Assembly: GCA_903908495.1 (NCBI GenBank)
Contig: CAIVSK010000025.1
Coordinates: forward strand, 1 to 46,357
Source of the DNA: Akkermansiaceae bacterium
GTDB lineage: Bacteria > Verrucomicrobiota > Verrucomicrobiia > Verrucomicrobiales > Akkermansiaceae
Length of the DNA: 46,357 nucleotides
Direction of reading: 5' to 3'
Below are positions 6,179 to 46,357 of the stretch, in pieces. A model generated the notes under the pieces. The model was not told the DNA's origin and made no database searches. It saw nothing but the letters and a program-made list of their open reading frames with translations. Every line of letters starts with the position of its first letter. The stretch's first letter is position 1. The position numbers and the translations under genes were made by a program.

Positions 6179-6286
6179 ACAATTCGTCGCGGAGAATGGT
6201 TGATCTGTATAAATTGGAGTGGCAAGCTTGCGGGGAATGCTGCAATTTGGCGGCGTAAGTTCCCACTGCCGTCCGCCTTCCCCGCC

Positions 6287-7972
6287 ATGCCCGCCGCCCC
6301 TAAGATCACCAAGCCCCGCATCCTGATCGTCACCCCGGAGATCACCTATCTACCGGCGGGAATGGGCAACATGGCGCAAGGCATGTCCGCCAAAGCCGGC
6401 GGCTTGGCCGACGTGTCCGCGTCCCTGGTGTCCGCCCTCTTCGAGCTCGGCGCGGATGTCCACGTGGCCATGCCGAACTACCGGCGGATGTTCCATGGCG
6501 ATGTGTTCAACCTGCATGAAAAGCAGTTGCGCAAGTACCATGAGGTGCTGCCGGAGTCTAACATCCACTTGGCGGAGGACCGGATTTTTTACTATCGGGA
6601 GCGGGTTTACAGCGACAGTTCGGAAGAATCGATGCGCATTGCGTTGATTTTCCAGCGGGAGGTGATCAACCACATCATCCCGCGGGTGCGGCCGGATTTG
6701 ATTCATTGCAACGACTGGATGACCGCCTTGCTGCCGGCCATGGCGCGGCGGCGCGGCATCAAGAGCCTTTTCACCGTTCACAACATCCACACCCGGCAAG
6801 TGACCTTGGCGCAAGTCGAGGAAACCGGCATCGACGCCGCGGAATTCTGGATGAACCTGTATTTCACCGGCCCGCCGTCGGGCTACGATCACGCCCGCTC
6901 GAATGTGTTGGTGGACATGCTCACGTCCGGCATTTTCGCCGCCCATTACATCAACACCGTCAGCCCGCGCTTCCTGTGGGAAATCGTCGAAGGCTGGCAC
7001 TCGGTGGTGCCGGATTCGGTGCGCTCCGAATTGCGCTACAAGTATGCGGCCGGCTGCTCCACCGGGATTCTCAACGCGCCGGACTCCTCGTACAATCCGG
7101 CCACCGACGATGCGCTGGTGCAACCGTTCAGCGCTGCGGACTTCCGCCCCGGCAAGACCGCCAACAAGTTGGCCCTGCAACGGGAGCTTCAACTCATCGA
7201 AGATCCCGCCGCCGCGATCTTTTACTGGCCCTCCCGCCTCGATCCCGTCCAGAAGGGCCCGCAGCTCTTCACCGCCATCCTCCATCAACTCGTCACCGAT
7301 TACGCCGAGAGCAACCTCCAAGTGGTGGTCGTCGCCAACGGCCCCCACGAGCGGCATTTCCACCACATCGTGCAGGAATTCGGCTTGCACGACCGGGTGG
7401 CGGTGGTCGACTTCGATGAACGCCTCTCGCGCCTCGCCTACGCCGGCTCGGACTACATGGTCATGCCGTCGTTGTTCGAACCTTGCGGCTTGCCGCAAAT
7501 GACCGCGCCGCTCTACGGCACCTTGCCCGTCGTGCATTCCACCGGCGGGCTCTACGACACGATCCGCCCGCTCGATGTGGACGAGTCCACCGGCAATGGC
7601 TTCCGCTTCGACCATTACGGCGCGGACTCGCTGCGCTGGGCGATTGATCGGGCGATGGATTTCCACGCCTTGCCGCAAGACCTCCGCGACCGCGAGATCA
7701 GCCGCATCATGCGCGAAAGTCTGGCCGAATTCAGCCACGAGAAGGTCGCCAAACAATACATCGCCATCTACGAGGAAATGCTCGCCCGGCCGCTGGTGGA
7801 GAAGGAAGCCGGCGAGGAATTGGCGAAACTCGCGGAGCAAGGGGAACTCCCCGCGCTTACCGAGGCCAAGGAACGCAAGCTCCACAAGGGGCCCAAGGTT
7901 CTGAAGGGAAAGCGGATGCCTAAGGGTGCCAGAGGACTCGCCGCCAAGGCCGCGCCACGAGGCCTGGCCTAA
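6287..7972 (+). CDS. glgA: Glycogen/starch synthase, GT5
   Basis: GT5 enzymes extend alpha-1,4-glucan from ADP-glucose or UDP-glucose in the cytoplasm. The 561-residue product has the N-terminal SAKAGGLADV loop, the counterpart of the classical KTGGL with alanine for threonine. It also has NDWMTALLP, VHNIH, and the C-terminal FEPCGLPQM...STGGLYDTI, which forms the GT-B acceptor and nucleotide site. The last ~45 residues are lysine-rich and glycine-rich (KGPKVLKGKRMPKG), an unusual basic tail. The ATG at 6287 is chosen because the family begins close to the PRILIVTPE strand; the frame extends back to 6200 without support. It converges on the DUF1460 gene, with a palindromic element between them. 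Confidence 0.9.
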   Translation: MPAAPKITKPRILIVTPEITYLPAGMGNMAQGMSAKAGGLADVSASLVSALFELGADVHVAMPNYRRMFHGDVFNLHEKQLRKYHEVLPESNIHLAEDRIFYYRERVYSDSSEESMRIALIFQREVINHIIPRVRPDLIHCNDWMTALLPAMARRRGIKSLFTVHNIHTRQVTLAQVEETGIDAAEFWMNLYFTGPPSGYDHARSNVLVDMLTSGIFAAHYINTVSPRFLWEIVEGWHSVVPDSVRSELRYKYAAGCSTGILNAPDSSYNPATDDALVQPFSAADFRPGKTANKLALQRELQLIEDPAAAIFYWPSRLDPVQKGPQLFTAILHQLVTDYAESNLQVVVVANGPHERHFHHIVQEFGLHDRVAVVDFDERLSRLAYAGSDYMVMPSLFEPCGLPQMTAPLYGTLPVVHSTGGLYDTIRPLDVDESTGNGFRFDHYGADSLRWAIDRAMDFHALPQDLRDREISRIMRESLAEFSHEKVAKQYIAIYEEMLARPLVEKEAGEELAKLAEQGELPALTEAKERKLHKGPKVLKGKRMPKGARGLAAKAAPRGLA

Positions 7973-7997
7973 CGGCTCACAAGCCCGCTGGCATCCT

Positions 7998-8160
7998 GCC
8001 CAATCCTGTCAGTTTAGAAGGAGGATAGGCTTCCAGCCTGTCATGCACGACGGGCTTCCAGCCTGTCGTTTCAAGCGCAGACAGGCTGGAAGCGCTGTCT
8101 TCCCTCACAGGCGGGACGCCTGTTTTCCGATCAGAGCGCGCTAAGTCAGCAGTATTGGGC
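7998..8160 (-). repeat. Palindromic interspersed element, copy 1 (full length, inverted)
   Basis: A 163 bp copy in reverse orientation to the other three, filling the gap between convergent glgA and the DUF1460 gene. The ends carry inverted repeats of about 20 bp (CTGTCAGTTTAG on the left; a diverged CTAAGTCAGCAGTATTGGGC on the right). Inside are four short hairpins built on GGCTTCCAGCC and GGCGTCCCGCC type words. ATCCT flanks both ends and could be a target duplication, but similar words occur inside the element, so this is weak. In this place it could act as a bidirectional terminator. Confidence 0.85.
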
Positions 8161-8182
8161 ATCCTTCCCGCCGCCGGGCCGT

Positions 8183-9268
8183 TCATTGGCTCACGGCTTT
8201 GCCTCTGCGGGCGGGATGGCTCGGGTCGCTGGTTTCGGTGGCCGTCGCCGGTTTTGGGTCCTGGGCGGCGATGGCTGGCTGCCACTGGGCCGAGGGTGGC
8301 AGATCGTCGGGGCGATAAATGATGATGCCGGCGTGGGTGGCGGAACCATTGAGATAATCCGTGATGGGACGGTCGATGATGATTTTGCGGCCCTTGTCGT
8401 GGTCCGATGTGGCATGGCTGAAGTACGCCCGGCCATTGACCCGCATGATCATGCCGACATGCGAGGTGTAGGCATCCAGGTCGGTGGTGGTGATCGCGCA
8501 CACATCCCCATCCTGCAGGTAGGCCTCCGCCGCGCGCACCTTTGCCTTGGGAATGTGCATGACCGGCAGTAGCGACACCCGCGCCTCGATCCGGCCCATC
8601 GGCTCGATCAACGAGGGATTCGAACGCAGGTAGCGGTAGCTCTTCCACGCCACCGTCATCTCGTGGATGTCACGCCGGAGGCGCACCGCGCCAGGCAGGC
8701 GGGCGGTGATGTTGGAGGCAAAGCCGCGCCGCTGGTTGTTGTCGAAAACCTCCTCCAACTGGTGCATCCGGCTGAGGTAGCTGCCGGTGCAGACGCCATT
8801 GCGATAGCGCTCGATCTCCACCATGTGGAGCATGTCCTGCGGTTGGTAGGGGCCGGGCTTGTAGTGCAACATGCGGGCGATCGCCAGGGCGTTCTCGTAA
8901 TAGGTCCAGCAATCCATCCCGGTGAGGTTGACCACGGGCGATTCGATCCGGTCATCCACTTCCAGCGTGTAGTTCACATACGGGGTGCCGACCAATTCCC
9001 GGGCGACCCGCATCGTCCGCTGGGCGAGTGGCAGCGCGCGCCAGTTCTCGCGTTCCGCCTTGGCCACGATCGCGCGAAATTTTGCCTCACCCTTGAAGAC
9101 GGTGCCCATCGCCAGGCGCGGCGCACTGGCTGGTGTCACCGACCGAGCACTGCTCGTGGCCACCTGGATATTGCGCGTACCGCCCATCGGCAGACCCTCG
9201 GTCTGGGAATATCCCGAGCTGGCGAGACATAAGCCGCCAAGCGAAATCACCACCAATCTGCCGTTCAT
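8183..9268 (-). CDS. Secreted DUF1460 (amidase-like) protein
   Basis: The 361-residue product starts with a signal peptide (MNGRLVVISLGGLCLASSGYSQ). The mature part matches DUF1460 proteins, an NlpC/P60-like fold often named N-acetylmuramoyl-L-alanine amidase-like. The catalytic cysteine is likely in NLTGMDCWTYYENALAIAR, and a histidine in YTSHVGMIMRV. It probably cleaves peptidoglycan or a glycopeptide in the periplasm; the substrate is not shown. The start at 9268 is chosen because it begins the signal peptide; an upstream ATG at 9304 would put residues before it. It lies 81 bp downstream of another NlpC/P60 gene on the same strand, so the two may share a transcript and a role in wall turnover. 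Confidence 0.82.
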   Translation of the reverse strand: MNGRLVVISLGGLCLASSGYSQTEGLPMGGTRNIQVATSSARSVTPASAPRLAMGTVFKGEAKFRAIVAKAERENWRALPLAQRTMRVARELVGTPYVNYTLEVDDRIESPVVNLTGMDCWTYYENALAIARMLHYKPGPYQPQDMLHMVEIERYRNGVCTGSYLSRMHQLEEVFDNNQRRGFASNITARLPGAVRLRRDIHEMTVAWKSYRYLRSNPSLIEPMGRIEARVSLLPVMHIPKAKVRAAEAYLQDGDVCAITTTDLDAYTSHVGMIMRVNGRAYFSHATSDHDKGRKIIIDRPITDYLNGSATHAGIIIYRPDDLPPSAQWQPAIAAQDPKPATATETSDPSHPARRGKAVSQ

Positions 9269-9349
9269 GCAGGCGACTTTAGCCGCAATTGCGGCAATTT
9301 GCAACGCCCGTCTTGCCCGCCGCCCGTCCCCAGGGTTGCGGCAGGGCCG

Positions 9350-21252: not shown

Positions 21253-22332
21253 ATGCGTCCAGTACTAACAAACCAAGCTCCTCCACCCGACCGCGGCACC
21301 CGGCCACGGGTGGCGATCATTCAAAAAAGCAACGGACTGCTGACCTGGTGCACCGATCTGACGGCGGCATTCCGGGAGGCGGGAGCCACCACCCTGGCCG
21401 CCAATTCCCGGCCATCCTCCCTATCAGAACACTGGGCCCGGCACCGCAACAACCAGCGGCTGCTGTTGAATCCGGCAACCTCCCGCCGCCTGGCCAACAC
21501 CCTGTCCGGCTTTGCGCCGGATCTGGTCGTCATTCTCAACTCCCCCAGTCTCCCGCCTGCCGCCGAGGCCCTCATGCGCCGCGCGCTGCGTCCGGGCGTG
21601 CCAATTGTCGGTTGGCTGTGTGACAGTGTCGACGTGCTGCCCGCGGGCCATGACGCGATGCTCGATGGAGTTTACTATTTTGATTCGGCAAGTCTGCCGA
21701 CCTTGCTTGAGCACTACCGGGCAACGCCGGCGCGCTTGGAGTTTCTGCCGCTGGCGGCCAACCCGCGGCGCTATGCCTGCCAACCTATCAATATTCAAGC
21801 CCGCGGGCGCCACCTCGTCTTTGCCGGCAACTGCACGCCCGCCCGCCAGCGCTTCTTCGCCGACTACCGCAGCCTTGGCCAACGCCTGGATCTGTACGGA
21901 CTGCATGCCGGCAATTGGCCCCGGGTGTGGCGCAACCGCAAACTCTCATCCGCCGCCCTGGCACGGGTCTATCAACAATGCCTGGTCAACCTCAACCTGC
22001 TGCAGGCGGGAAACACCACCAACGGGCTCAATTTGCGGGCCTTCGAAATCCCCTGCGCCGGCGGCTTGGCATCCTATCCGGACGTGCCCGATCTCGCCCG
22101 CTGCTTCACGCCCGATGAGGAAGTCATCGTCTATCAGTCCGCCACGGATCTCGCCGAAAAGGTCGGCCACCTTCTGCGCCACCCCGAGCAAGCCCTGGCA
22201 ATCACGCTGGCAGGTCATCAGCGGGTGCTGCGGGAACACACGTTCTATCACCGGGCTGTGCGCATGTTGAATGATTGGCTCGGCTCGTCCTTCCGCCCTG
22301 AAATCCCCGACTACATCGCCTCTTCGCTATGA
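21253..22332 (+). CDS. CgeB-like glycosyltransferase
   Basis: The 359-residue protein resembles the GT-B glycosyltransferases grouped with the spore proteins CgeB and YkvP. The C-terminal domain has the characteristic string NGLNLRAFEIPCAGGLASYPDVPDLARCFTPDEE in two parts (about residues 255-290), then VIVYQSATDLAEKVGHLLRHPEQ and a closing HQRVLREHTFYHRA helix. The N-terminal half has PDLVVILNSPSLPP and GWLCDSVD. Donor and acceptor sugars are unknown. It starts six bases after the preceding stop and overlaps the next gene by four bases (ATGA), placing it within the glycan operon. Confidence 0.82.
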   Translation: MRPVLTNQAPPPDRGTRPRVAIIQKSNGLLTWCTDLTAAFREAGATTLAANSRPSSLSEHWARHRNNQRLLLNPATSRRLANTLSGFAPDLVVILNSPSLPPAAEALMRRALRPGVPIVGWLCDSVDVLPAGHDAMLDGVYYFDSASLPTLLEHYRATPARLEFLPLAANPRRYACQPINIQARGRHLVFAGNCTPARQRFFADYRSLGQRLDLYGLHAGNWPRVWRNRKLSSAALARVYQQCLVNLNLLQAGNTTNGLNLRAFEIPCAGGLASYPDVPDLARCFTPDEEVIVYQSATDLAEKVGHLLRHPEQALAITLAGHQRVLREHTFYHRAVRMLNDWLGSSFRPEIPDYIASSL

Positions 22333-23363
22333 CCGCTCCAAGCCCTGCCCCGCCCAATAGTGTCAATTTGGGGTGCCCTGACCGGACAACAGGCGTCCCG
22401 CCTGTGAGGGAAGACAGCGCGTCCCGCCTGTCTGCGCTTGAGACGACAGGCTGGAAGCCCGTCGTCCATGACAGGCAAGATGCCTGTCCTCCTGCTAAAT
22501 CGACAGTTTTGCCAGCCTCACCGACCCTCCGTCTCGCAGACGGCGTGCTGGTCATCAACCTCGACCAGCGCCCGGAGCGACTGGAGCGCTTTGCGGCAAT
22601 GGCGGCGCTGACAAGCGTGCTGGACGGCTGGCAACGCATCCCCGCAGTCAATGGAGTGGAGCTTCCCGGCTACGACCGGCGGCCCTGGTTCCGCCAGCGC
22701 AAACGCGACAAGTGCTGGGCCGGCAGGGCGGGCTGCACGCTGTCGCACCGCAAAGCCATCGCCTATGCCCGCGACGCCGGTTGGGACAGTGTCCTGATTC
22801 TCGAAGATGACGTCCAGCCGGGCGAGGGATTCGACGCCGCCGTGAAAAACTTCCTCGATGGCACTGCGGCTTGCCCCAGGCCGTCAAGCGCATGCTTCCT
22901 CGGCTTGTCCCAACAAGTCGGCCCCAGCCTCAAACTCCGCCGCCTGGATGACGTGCGCTCTATCTATCAAATTTTCGGTTGCACCGGCACCTTTGCCTAC
23001 ATTTTGCAACGCGACTCATTTGATTGGCTGCTGGCCAAGCTGCCCACCGCGGAGACCATTTGGCCGTGGGTGGCGCGCCACCGCGCGATCGACCGCTGGT
23101 ATGCCCGCAACCTGTCGGGCCGTTTCACGGTGCACGCGGTGTCCCCGAGCCTCATCGGGCACTACTCGAGCTTTTCGGACATCGGCCAGCGCGCCGGCGC
23201 CAACCTGCTCGTCGAGGAATCAGAACCCGAAGAACATGACCACTTGCGGCCTTGCGGCCCCATCGCGTTCAGCCTCGGTGCGGCGCTCCTGCGGATCCGA
23301 TTTTCGCTCACCAAACTGGTCAACCGCGTCCAGTGTGCAATCAAGCGCCAGCGCGGGTTCTGA
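22329..23363 (+). CDS. GT25 glycosyltransferase with an embedded palindromic element
   Basis: The 344-residue protein is a family 25 transferase, as used in lipooligosaccharide synthesis. Its core starts at VLVINLDQRPERLERF (residue 73) and has GCTLSHRKAIAYARDAG and the LILEDDVQ metal-binding motif (near 158). Residues 9-62 are encoded by the palindromic element at 22352-22513, read in frame without stops. The ATG at 22329 overlaps the previous stop (ATGA), which argues that translation really begins there and passes through the element. An in-frame GTG at 22545, just before the core, is the alternative. The element may have inserted at the 5' end of a working gene. Confidence 0.82.
   Translation: MTAPSPAPPNSVNLGCPDRTTGVPPVREDSASRLSALETTGWKPVVHDRQDACPPAKSTVLPASPTLRLADGVLVINLDQRPERLERFAAMAALTSVLDGWQRIPAVNGVELPGYDRRPWFRQRKRDKCWAGRAGCTLSHRKAIAYARDAGWDSVLILEDDVQPGEGFDAAVKNFLDGTAACPRPSSACFLGLSQQVGPSLKLRRLDDVRSIYQIFGCTGTFAYILQRDSFDWLLAKLPTAETIWPWVARHRAIDRWYARNLSGRFTVHAVSPSLIGHYSSFSDIGQRAGANLLVEESEPEEHDHLRPCGPIAFSLGAALLRIRFSLTKLVNRVQCAIKRQRGF
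22352..22513 (+). repeat. Palindromic interspersed element, copy 2, in frame in GT25 gene
   Basis: About 162 bp, exactly 54 codons, inside the 5' part of the GT25 reading frame. The left end is a diverged GCCCAATAGTGTCAATTTG and the right end CTAAATCGACAGTTTTGCC, complementary with mismatches. The four hairpins are intact, one now with an AGA loop. The encoded peptide includes TGVPPVREDSASRLSAL and TGWKPVVHDRQDACPP, closely matching the frames of copies 3 and 4. Confidence 0.85.
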
Positions 23364-24317: not shown

Positions 24318-25397
24318 ATGAGCACCACCAGCGGCAAGCGAATCCGGGTCAAGTTCCTGTCCAAATCGCAGGCATCCGACACCAATTATGACCTGTGGAT
24401 GAAGCGGTTTCCCAACCATGTGCCAAGTTGGGGTGCCTGTGACTTCATCTTTGACCAGCATTGCCACGACTATGACTGGTTGATGGTCTATGACGATCTG
24501 CCAAAAAGCGGTGACGAGCGCTTCCCTAACTGGTCTGAAAAACTGCCGTCGATCAGGGAGAACTCGCTGCTCATCACCGCAGAGCCGTCTGTCATCAAGA
24601 ATTACGGGCGCTCGTTCGTCAACCAGTTCGGCTGGATCCTCAGCAGTCAGGAGCCATGGGCCATCAAACACCCGAGGACCATCCTGTCCCAAACCGGATA
24701 CGTCTGGTTCTATGGCGGCAGCGGCGCGCGCGGCTCGTATGATGCGCTTGCAAGCCAGGTGCCGCCGCGCAAGACCTTGCCGATCTCCACGGTTTGTTCC
24801 ACCAAGCAGATGCGCCACACGCTGCATCACGCCCGCTATAAGTTCACCCAGGACCTCAAGGCCAGGCTGCCGGCGTTGGATATTTTCGGCCAGGGCGTGC
24901 GCCCAATCGACGACAAGGCCGACGCGCTGGATCCCTACAAGCTGCATCTGGCGATTGAAAACCATGTGTGTCCGCACCATTGGACCGAGAAGCTCAGCGA
25001 TCCGTTCCTCGGTCATTGCCTGCCTCTCTATCATGGTTGTCCTAACACCATGGAATACTTTCCGGAAGAGAGTCATATCCCGATTAACATCCATCACTTC
25101 GACGAAGCCTTCGAGCGCATCAAGCAGGCGCTGCAAGACCATGAATATGAAAAGCGGCTGCCCGCCATTCAGGAGGCCCGGCGCTTGATTTTGAATGAAT
25201 ACGCGCTGTTCCCGCTGGTAGCGCGCTTGATCGAGGAGCGCCACCAGATTCGCGGCGATGAACCGGTGGCCGCCCACTCGATCTGCAGCCGCCGCGCCGT
25301 GCGCAGGAAACAGCCCGTCTCCGCCGTCCGCGACGCCATCGATAAGACACTGCTGCGCCTCAGGCACAAGTTCATCCGGCCAGACGGTCCGACCTAA
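24318..25397 (+). CDS. GT10-like (fucosyltransferase-family) glycosyltransferase A
   Basis: The 359-residue protein carries the C-terminal GT10 signature at about residues 190-255: DIFGQGVRPIDDKADAL, YKLHLAIENH, HWTEKLSDPFLG and PLYHGCPNTMEYFP. GT10 enzymes classically move fucose from GDP-fucose; whether fucose is used here is unknown. The N-terminal half is less conserved, with DYDWLMVYDDLP and LLITAEPS. It starts two bases after the DUF535 stop. The next gene is a diverged tandem paralogue. Confidence 0.82.
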   Translation: MSTTSGKRIRVKFLSKSQASDTNYDLWMKRFPNHVPSWGACDFIFDQHCHDYDWLMVYDDLPKSGDERFPNWSEKLPSIRENSLLITAEPSVIKNYGRSFVNQFGWILSSQEPWAIKHPRTILSQTGYVWFYGGSGARGSYDALASQVPPRKTLPISTVCSTKQMRHTLHHARYKFTQDLKARLPALDIFGQGVRPIDDKADALDPYKLHLAIENHVCPHHWTEKLSDPFLGHCLPLYHGCPNTMEYFPEESHIPINIHHFDEAFERIKQALQDHEYEKRLPAIQEARRLILNEYALFPLVARLIEERHQIRGDEPVAAHSICSRRAVRRKQPVSAVRDAIDKTLLRLRHKFIRPDGPT

Positions 25398-25437
25398 CGA
25401 CAACATCATCGGCCTTTCAAGAAATCCTCCCCCCGCC

Positions 25438-26571
25438 ATGCCAAATACTGTCAGTTCAGCACACTCTGAGCGGAAAACAGGCATCCTGCCTGCGATGGAA
25501 GACAGCGCTTCAAGTCCGTCCGCGCATGAAACGACAGGCAGGATGCCCGTCGTCCATGCCAGGCAGGATGCCTATCCTCCTGACTCCTCCGCCCCTCCAC
25601 GCTTGCGGGTCGCCGTGACCACCACGGTGAGTCATGCGGACATGGACCGGCTCTGTCCCGAGCGCCAGACGCGTTGGGGCCGCTGTGAGTTTCTGCTCAA
25701 TCCGCCGCGGGGCAGCGCCTGCGATTATTGGATTGTGTTTGCGGGCAGTCGTGACCGCGACCTAATGCAGTGCGCGCCGGAGAACACCCTGTTCATTGCG
25801 GGCGAACCCCCATCCAAAAAAATCTATCCGCGGAAGTTTTACGCGCAATTCCACCGCGTCGTCAGCAGTCATGCCGCCGACCCCCATCCGCGGGTGACCA
25901 CCAGCCTGCCCGGGCTGAACTGGCACGTCGGGCTGTTCCGCGCCGCGGACCGCTACCACTACGGCTATGACGAGCTCAAGCGCCTGACGCCGGACGCCAA
26001 GACCAACCGGATTTCGGTGGTGTGCTCCAATCTAACCACCACGCCGGGCCAGCGCCAGCGGCTCGAGTTTCTCGGGCATCTCAAGGCGGCGCTGGGTGAG
26101 CGCCTGGTACATTACGGGCGCGGCTTCACCCCGATTGAGGACAAGATGGATGCGATCCTGCCGCACCGCTTGCATCTGGTGTTGGAAAATTCCTGTTCGC
26201 CCGACTATTGGACCGAGAAACTCTCCGATGCCTATCTGGGCTGGGCCTATCCGATCTACGCGGGCTGCCCGAATCTGGGGGATTATTTTCCCGCCGCGGG
26301 CTTCACCGCGGTGGACGTCACGCAGCCGCAACAAGCGGTTGACCTCATCCGGGGCATGCTGGCAGAAGAGCCGGGAGCGGCCGAAATGGCGGCCATCGCC
26401 CGCTGTCGCGACTTGATTCTGGACGATTACAACCCGTTCGCCCGTTTCGCCCATTGGGCCGAACTTTTCCATCAGCCAGGCACCCGCTCGCAAGCCATGG
26501 CCATCACCACCCACAAGGCATTCCGCCCGTTCCCCCGGGGACTTATCTATCGGCTGAGGCATGGCGGCTAA
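25438..26571 (+). CDS. GT10-like glycosyltransferase B with an element-derived N-terminus
   Basis: The 377-residue protein shares the GT10 signature with its upstream neighbour: YGRGFTPIEDKMDAI, HRLHLVLENSCSPDYW, TEKLSDAYLGWAYPIYAGCPN and DYFP (about residues 225-285). The two are likely a tandem duplication that has diverged to accept different substrates. The first ~50 codons after the ATG at 25438 are supplied by the palindromic element 25440-25590, in the same frame as in the GT25 gene. The core begins at LRVAVTTTVSHADMD. If translation instead starts at a TTG or GTG just before the core, the element is leader sequence. The frame also extends upstream to 25258 over the previous gene, which is unlikely to be used. 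Confidence 0.8.
   Translation: MPNTVSSAHSERKTGILPAMEDSASSPSAHETTGRMPVVHARQDAYPPDSSAPPRLRVAVTTTVSHADMDRLCPERQTRWGRCEFLLNPPRGSACDYWIVFAGSRDRDLMQCAPENTLFIAGEPPSKKIYPRKFYAQFHRVVSSHAADPHPRVTTSLPGLNWHVGLFRAADRYHYGYDELKRLTPDAKTNRISVVCSNLTTTPGQRQRLEFLGHLKAALGERLVHYGRGFTPIEDKMDAILPHRLHLVLENSCSPDYWTEKLSDAYLGWAYPIYAGCPNLGDYFPAAGFTAVDVTQPQQAVDLIRGMLAEEPGAAEMAAIARCRDLILDDYNPFARFAHWAELFHQPGTRSQAMAITTHKAFRPFPRGLIYRLRHGG
25440..25590 (+). repeat. Palindromic interspersed element, copy 3, right end decayed
   Basis: About 150 bp. The left inverted repeat (GCCAAATACTGTCAGTTCAG) is clear; the right one after CCTATCCTCCTGACTCC is largely lost. The hairpin words are of the GGCATCCTGCC/GGCAGGATGCC type, unlike the GGCTTCCAGCC type of other copies, yet each stem remains complementary. 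The second hairpin is the most decayed. It is read as SERKTGILPAMEDSAS and ETTGRMPVVHARQDAYPP in the GT10 B frame. Confidence 0.82.
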
Positions 26572-38723: not shown

Positions 38724-38943
38724 GCGGGTGGAATCCGCCGCGAGAATGGCAGCGAATCGCGTCCTGCAAAACCCAAATTTTGCATAAATTCCCCGCGTGG
38801 GCGAATTCCGCGGCTAAACCCGCCCAAATCACCGTTGCGGCGGTCCGTCCGGGCGCACCCCAAGGACCGAGGGCCCCGACCCCGGCTGGGAAACGAGCGC
38901 ATTCAGGGAAAATGAATAGGCGGGTTTGGCTCGCGGACGGGAC
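38724..38943. other. Spacer upstream of nuoF
   Basis: This is the nuoF-proximal part of a 401 bp nuoE-nuoF gap; the rest is palindromic element copy 4 and 18 bp next to nuoE. It contains a locally AT-rich stretch (AAATTTTGCATAAATT, 38774-38789) that may hold a promoter for nuoF. I see no gene in it. Confidence 0.45.
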
Positions 38944-39106
38944 GCCCAAGACTGGCAGTCTAGCGCGCTCCGAGCGGAAAACAGGCGTCCCGCCTGTGAT
39001 GGAAGACAGCGCTTCCAGCCTGTCTGCGCATGAAACGACAGGCTGGAAGCCCGTCGTCCATGACAGGCTGGAAGCCTATCCTCCTTCTAAACTGACAGTA
39101 TCGGGC
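38944..39106 (+). repeat. Palindromic interspersed element, copy 4 (full length)
   Basis: A 163 bp copy between nuoE and nuoF, in a natural break of the operon. Its ends are GCCCAAGACTGGCAGTCTAG and CTAAACTGACAGTATCGGGC, near-perfect inverted repeats. Of the four hairpins inside, the first two have TCC loops and the last two GGA loops, so the element's halves can also pair with each other. It is stop-free in the same frame as copies 2 and 3 (read on the plus strand). Confidence 0.88.
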
Positions 39107-39124
39107 GGGCCGCCCCCCTGCCGG

Positions 39125-39740: not shown

Positions 39741-39844
39741 ATAACCAATAACCAATAACCAATAACCAATAACCAATAACCAATAACCAATAACCAATAA
39801 CCAATAACCAATAACCAATAACCAATAACCAATAACCAATAACC
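39741..39844. repeat. Heptanucleotide tandem array (AATAACC)n
   Basis: About 15 uninterrupted units of a 7 bp word (ATAACCA in this register; TTATTGG on the other strand) fill most of the nuoD-nuoE spacer, ending six bases from the nuoD stop. Units are identical, so copy number could vary between cells. Similar heptamer arrays are known in cyanobacteria as STRR sequences. Confidence 0.97.
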
Positions 39845-46268: not shown

Positions 46269-46286
46269 GCTCTGGCCAATCGCAAA

Positions 46287-46357
46287 CGGACCACGGACCA
46301 CGGACCACGGACCACGGACCACGGACCACGGACCACGGACCACGGACCACTGACCAC
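46287..46357. repeat. Heptanucleotide tandem array (CGGACCA)n, running off the window
   Basis: About ten units of a 7 bp word, nearly identical (the last reads CTGACCA), begin 19 bases after the peptidase stop and continue to the right edge. Reading frames through it give repeated VRGPWSV, which is not real protein. It has the same period as the nuoD-nuoE array, with ACCA shared between the two unit words. Confidence 0.95.

Follow-up and report, generated by a model that had tools for sequence, protein, structure and literature searches.

A MITE-like repeat of IS4 type carrying four REP-like hairpins in an Akkermansiaceae bacterium

Introduction

REP sequences and REPINs, which are associated with RAYT (TnpAREP) transposases, are short hairpins found in inverted groups, and the published accounts, as far as excerpted here, describe sub-families of REPs with alternative complementary stem residues (PMC3733652, PMC6006769, PMC8266576). 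The repeat described here resembles them in both respects, and the occurrence of alternative complementary stem residues within REP families is thus already in print (PMC3733652). In the portion of PMC8266576 drawn on, the activity of TnpASm depends on the bases of the REP loop, and in the TnpAMb substrate the loop-closing bases T12 and A15 are complementary.

Insertion into palindromic repeats, a further point of likeness, is described for IS1397, IS621, ISKpn1, and ISRm22; targeting of REPs by insertion sequences, one of which (ISRm22) belongs to the IS4 family, has therefore been published as well (excerpts of PMC1525189). The IS4 family is characterized by a DDE transposase with a YREK-type signature and by a marked insertion preference, and its subgroup IS4 has ends of the -AATR type and a duplication class of 10–13 bp (PMC2266710, in part). 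Template switching in hairpins is predicted to give loop inversions and simultaneous complementary changes; the section of that report used here grades its own evidence for compensatory changes as circumstantial (PMC8794818).

The present repeat joins DDE-type MITEs and HUH-type REPs, usually treated apart, in one 157-bp unit. It is probably best explained as an IS4-type MITE filled with four REP-like hairpins whose tips are exchanged as words. What is new here is the presence of REP-like hairpins within an apparent IS4-type MITE that has these hairpin tips among its targets; no report of REP-like hairpins inside an IS4 MITE was found in the open-access literature, as judged from titles and abstract openings among the matches listed.

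The repeat element and its copies

The window, i.e. the whole analyzed stretch of 46,357 nucleotides, contains four copies of the repeat. Copy 1 (157 bp, positions 8001–8157, plus strand) is situated between two converging open frames, 6200–7972 on the plus strand and 8183–9304 on the minus strand. Judged by its sequence, it looks like a non-coding MITE of an IS4-type insertion sequence with four palindromic REP-like hairpins inside. The first-pass annotation had recognized the hairpin repeat and placed it at 7998–8160, which is nearly right but overlaps the target duplication by 3 bp at either end of the 8001–8157 core. It missed the IS4-type MITE identity, as well as the double role of GGC-N5-GCC as hairpin tip and as insertion target.

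The terminal inverted repeats are approximately 17 bp long. The left one, CAATCCTGTCAGTTTAG (8001–8017, plus strand), is common to an IS4-family element of the same genome; the right one (8141–8157) reads CAATACTGCTGACTTAG on the minus strand. Outside of these lie the two unstranded copies of an 11-bp target duplication, GGCATCCTGCC at 7990–8000 and GGCATCCTTCC at 8158–8168, identical at 10 of 11 positions. Module 1 (8024–8042, plus strand) is the hairpin GATAGGC-TTCCA-GCCTGTC with GGAG just before it; the loop-closing bases, termed X and X', are at 8031 and 8035. Module 2 (8049–8067, plus strand) is GACGGGC-TTCCA-GCCTGTC with X at 8056 and X' at 8060. Modules 3 and 4 are on the minus strand: module 3 (8080–8099) is GACAGGC-TGGAA-GCgCTGTC with one bulged base, as determined from sequence and pair counts, and module 4 (8106–8124) is AACAGGC-GTCCC-GCCTGTG when read on the minus strand. 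The aligned parts of the other window copies, all on the minus strand, are 22352–22506 (copy 2), 25438–25581 (copy 3), and 38940–39109 (copy 4 with flanks).

Two open reading frames from a mechanical listing, 22329–23363 and 25258–26571, begin ahead of a MITE copy and read through it; their true starts may be downstream. The window also carries two 7-bp tandem arrays, ATAACCA at 39741–39844 (about 15 copies, 100% matches) and ACGGACC at 46286–46357 (about 10 copies, reaching the contig end).

A search of the own genome (6.19 Mb, 432 contigs) gave 68 matches, which represent about 40 places together with the same copies on the other strand. This copy number is a lower bound, as 40 of 128 first-look candidates were scored; three of 72 loci (L102, L126, L130) showed no match on copy extraction. 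The MITE is present in six of 58 relatives searched (E-value 1e-10). These six belong to the same genus, and two have a single short match. Of 59 genomes searched for the exact hairpin core, 39 contain it, and the MITE is lacking in most of these; the named records that contain the exact module-2 pattern are MAGs of Akkermansiaceae or Verrucomicrobia.

Covariation at the hairpin tips

The first-pass annotation stated that X-X' is complementary in all 16 stems of the four window copies, and re-reading gives 16 of 16. These stems are not independent because copies 1 and 4 carry an identical set of four words. Two of the window stems have loops other than TCC/GGA, i.e. TCT (module ATCTT, copy at 22.4 kb) and TGA (module TTGAA, copy at 25.5 kb). 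With 40 copies of the own genome, X-X' is complementary in 151 of 160 stems, and one of the nine misses is a gap. The annotation had named independent variation of X and X' in a larger alignment as evidence against itself. In an alignment of 88 copies from the own genome and relatives, X and X' vary together, since they are complementary in 324 of 349 stems within modules (own genome 217/233, relatives 107/116) but only in 17–30 of 85–88 comparisons between modules. The 88 copies are the rows kept from 107 aligned, 19 having been dropped for less than 75% identity over the core; five partial matches were removed before alignment. The between-module controls, in which X was compared with the X' of a different module, gave 29/87, 29/85, 21/87, and 17/85, and a further set 30/88, 29/88, 18/88, and 17/88.

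The pattern CAGGC-N-TCC-N-GCCTG occurs 67 times genome-wide and is complementary at N-N in 60 of these; the same pattern read backwards occurs twice. In genomes of other families the hairpin pattern shows complementary X-X' in 64/66 (G058), 20/21 (G038), 14/14 (G049), 13/20 (G052), and 6/8 (G039) cases. G052 is the main exception, with six CAGGC-ATCCC-GCCTG among its 20 hairpins.

Complementarity of this order could mean that selection maintains the hairpins in folded form as functional RNA or cruciform elements, the X-X' changes being compensatory. It would agree with this that the two strands fold far better than shuffled sequences (z = −8.2 and −7.2 as RNA, −7.4 and −6.1 as DNA), and that a T.G pair common in module 1 and a G.T pair in nearly all module 2 sequences both fit the plus strand. 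However, good folding of both strands is expected of an inverted-repeat element, and the window copy folds best with module 1 paired to module 3, a pairing not conserved among copies. Covariation within the helices is restricted to the X-X' pair, with 106 double changes versus 19 broken of 349, whereas the other stem pairs show 10 double changes versus 193 broken among 2450 cells (module-4 pair 7, barely a pair at all, accounts for 71 of the broken ones). Compensation at these other pairs would be expected if the stems were kept by it, and its absence argues against this explanation. Private substitutions occur at similar frequencies in stems and spacers (own copies: stems 0.020, loops 0.026, spacers 0.028, ends 0.021; all rows: stems 0.033, spacers 0.039), and there is no Rfam match at the gathering score in the window or in four loci. 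Selection on folded strands, proposed in the first-pass annotation, is thus unsupported within the element, and a selected RNA or cruciform is quite unlikely. A selected RNA structure need not underlie almost perfect covariation in a bacterial repeat, and comparing the varying pair with neighboring pairs separates word exchange from compensation.

The alternative that the same annotation offered, exchange or module shuffling, appears to fit better. There are only three complementary X-X' words in the element (TTCCA, GTCCC, and ATCCT), and the 324 complementary pairs, in TCC orientation, consist of 147 T-A, 104 G-C, and 73 A-T, with no C-G. In addition, module 2 of copy L013 carries its word inverted in place. 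The matched tip changes are real, and they look more like swaps among three ready-made tip versions than a folded molecule being repaired stepwise. The favored source of the paired changes is therefore the copying of entire tips, either inside one hairpin or from one hairpin to another: X-X' would change in step when a whole word is copied among homologous modules or, alternatively, by template switching within the hairpin, rather than by selection repairing each folded copy.

Template switching at quasi-palindromes might also act alone, a change at X being copied to X' in one replication error. The available part of PMC8794818 describes such a route to both loop inversions and paired complementary changes, and the L013 word would be an instance of the former, yet it is the one inverted word among 88 copies. 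Template switching should also produce C-G pairs, which are absent even though C at X or G at X' does occur, in five of the 25 mismatched stems, and it should correct other stem pairs too, which are not corrected. As the sole source of the changes it is unlikely.

The number of independent paired switches is uncertain, and the trivial minimum of eight alone is trusted. A core-only tree (86 rows) gives 10 switches at SH-aLRT 90 and 33 at SH-aLRT 80, with only three branches having a support of at least 90; counts from the first tree, at least 29 (SH-aLRT 90) or 40 (SH-aLRT 80), were given up after the core-only tree. X columns are no more homoplasic than other alignment columns. The MITE copies constitute a family in which tip exchange could be measured.

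Ends, target sites and a related insertion sequence

The target duplication is 11 bp with the form GGC-N5-GCC. Both ends could be located in 38 of 112 extracted copies; among these 38, the flanks match at 9 or more of 11 bases in 24 (shuffled mean 5.3, maximum 12) and at 10 or more in 10 (shuffled mean 1.8, maximum 8). Alternative duplication lengths of 7–10 give none and a length of 12 gives one. Off-consensus copies such as L016, with GGCGGTGGGCG on both sides, vary in the GGC and GCC on both sides together, so these bases are part of the target. A 5-bp duplication was dropped in favor of 11 bp on account of this joint variation and because IS4-subgroup ends start at -AATR. Under the 5-bp reading, palindromes extending beyond GGC/GCC at the insertion sites are weak (63 of 147 outer positions complementary versus 49.0 in shuffles, P = 0.0028) and were not used.

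An IS4-family transposase open reading frame of 469 aa is found in the own genome (G000:C148) between matching ends about 1456 bp apart. The protein matches Pfam PF13006 and PF01609, scores 206 bits against the NCBIfam IS4 equivalog (cut-off 115), and has a sequence read as a YREK-type signature, Y-PE-R-WEI-E-LTIKES-K, as defined in the cited portion of PMC2266710. The size, ends, and duplication class of the C148 element appear to fit subgroup IS4 as described there. The CAATACTG... ends are found on the MITE copies and on contigs C148, C154, C202, C334 (a partial second copy of the insertion sequence), and C358. A chimera on C154 (L127:205–524) joins the MITE left end and modules 1–2 to the start of the IS4 transposase and the right end of the insertion sequence.

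The shared ends and the chimera suggest that the MITE was mobilized in trans by the IS4 transposase. It is well supported by sequence that such a transposase would recognize the CAATACTG... ends and insert the 157-bp unit into 11-bp GGC-N5-GCC sites, which it would duplicate. The interior of the MITE differs from the non-autonomous IS4 forms in the part of PMC2266710 at hand in that it is a REP-like hairpin array and not a shortened transposase gene. In the six MITE-bearing relatives, which are draft genomes, no close relative of the transposase was found at an E-value of 1e-20.

The flanks of the C148 element itself are unequal, with agreement at 8 of 11 bases. Between GGC and GCC (L157:241–251 and 1708–1718) they read AAGAT and ATCCT; AAGAT corresponds on the other strand to the module-1 word ATCTT, as though one C148 flank had been inverted.

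Because the REP-like tips are themselves GGC-N5-GCC, they would offer insertion sites to members of the same transposon family, and copies would come to lie inside one another. The cleanest nesting case is in a relative (L072), where a 288-bp element with IS-like ends is found in a module 1 tip with identical 11-bp flanks. The situation differs from that of IS1397, IS621, ISKpn1, and ISRm22, as excerpted from PMC1525189, in that here the non-autonomous relative itself bears the targeted hairpins and its copies nest.

One could turn this relation around and regard the module tips as leftovers of past insertions, with X-X' paired because the transposase prefers symmetric 11-bp targets. X-X' is indeed complementary in 19 of the 24 well-duplicated targets, and the contexts of modules 1–4 all recur next to element ends (with up to 5 mismatches allowed, 15 of 278 distinct ends, several of them weak). 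But the targets are mostly G-C (16/24) with a free middle and no T-A, whereas the modules keep TCC and use T-A most. The same words are also present in G058, G052, and G049, which have no related transposase at an E-value of 1e-20; REP-like tips thus occur in lineages without the insertion sequence. An origin of the tips as insertion leftovers is hardly credible.

REP-like hairpins and RAYT-type genes

Searches of four relatives belonging to other families of the order gave 55 Y1_Tnp matches, and 30 of these loci were examined. TCC-loop hairpins are found near RAYT-type genes in 14 of the 30, and in at least six of the 14 inverted hairpins lie on both sides of the gene. The commonest hairpin centers in the 30 loci are TCC and GGA, 19 each, the next having nine. 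Most RAYT-flanking hairpins carry CTCCG on other stems, and CTCCG is never found in the element. However, the RAYT loci L209, L229, and L232 carry words of the MITE, and L229 has its GTCCC hairpin exactly. The inner hairpins of the MITE may thus be derived from REP-like elements employed by RAYT-type Y1 (HUH) transposases, enzymes whose substrate is folded single-stranded DNA; support for this comes from the relatives only.

In the own genome none of the eight Y1_Tnp loci has such hairpins, and the foot of the hairpins is GGAG, seen at module 1 in the window, the GT[AG]G of REPs not being encountered. The modules are termed REP-like for these two reasons. The foot, the IS4-type ends lying outside, and the lack of a RAYT near the own-genome hairpins all set the element apart from the REP/RAYT systems in the parts of the literature cited above.

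The inverted arrangement of REP-like hairpins, together with the TCC-loop hairpins flanking RAYT genes in relatives, would also be compatible with a RAYT transposase moving the whole unit as a REPIN-like element, in which case its terminal repeats would be incidental. Against this are the 11-bp duplications, the eight own-genome loci without hairpins, and the occurrence of the same inverted ends on a DDE-type insertion sequence. The RAYT was rejected as mover of the whole unit on the duplications and these loci, and a REPIN-like nature of the unit is highly improbable.

For the MITE with IS4-type ends, a fuller history can be put forward tentatively, and it may well be wrong: a DDE (IS4-type) transposon would have captured a REP-like array once spread by an unrelated HUH transposase, would target those tips and grow by nesting, and three 5-base words would circulate between modules by copying within or between hairpins.

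Several further observations concern the relatives. G038 has 21 exact hairpin cores and no Y1_Tnp match at an E-value of 0.001; hairpins thus persist there without a detected RAYT. In G049 (L208, L212, L216, L220) RAYT genes are found between inverted TCC-loop hairpins with lineage-specific stems and a C-G closing pair, e.g. gcatccCTCCGggatgc.

In G058, RAYT-type Y1 transposase domains are found in frame within the uninterrupted open reading frames of three enzymes, alanyl-tRNA synthetase, carbamoyl-phosphate synthase large chain, and leucyl-tRNA synthetase. The loci of these domains are L229:1–3297 (C13), L232:1–3219 (C20), and L217:1–3186 (C12). Among the matches listed by a literature search there was no report of Y1 domains inside such enzymes. 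REP-like hairpins beside the in-frame domains are translated too. The G058 genome, which is 86% complete, yielded a single alanyl-tRNA synthetase, with its profile split at 377/379 around the insert; the profile is unsplit in G000 and G038.
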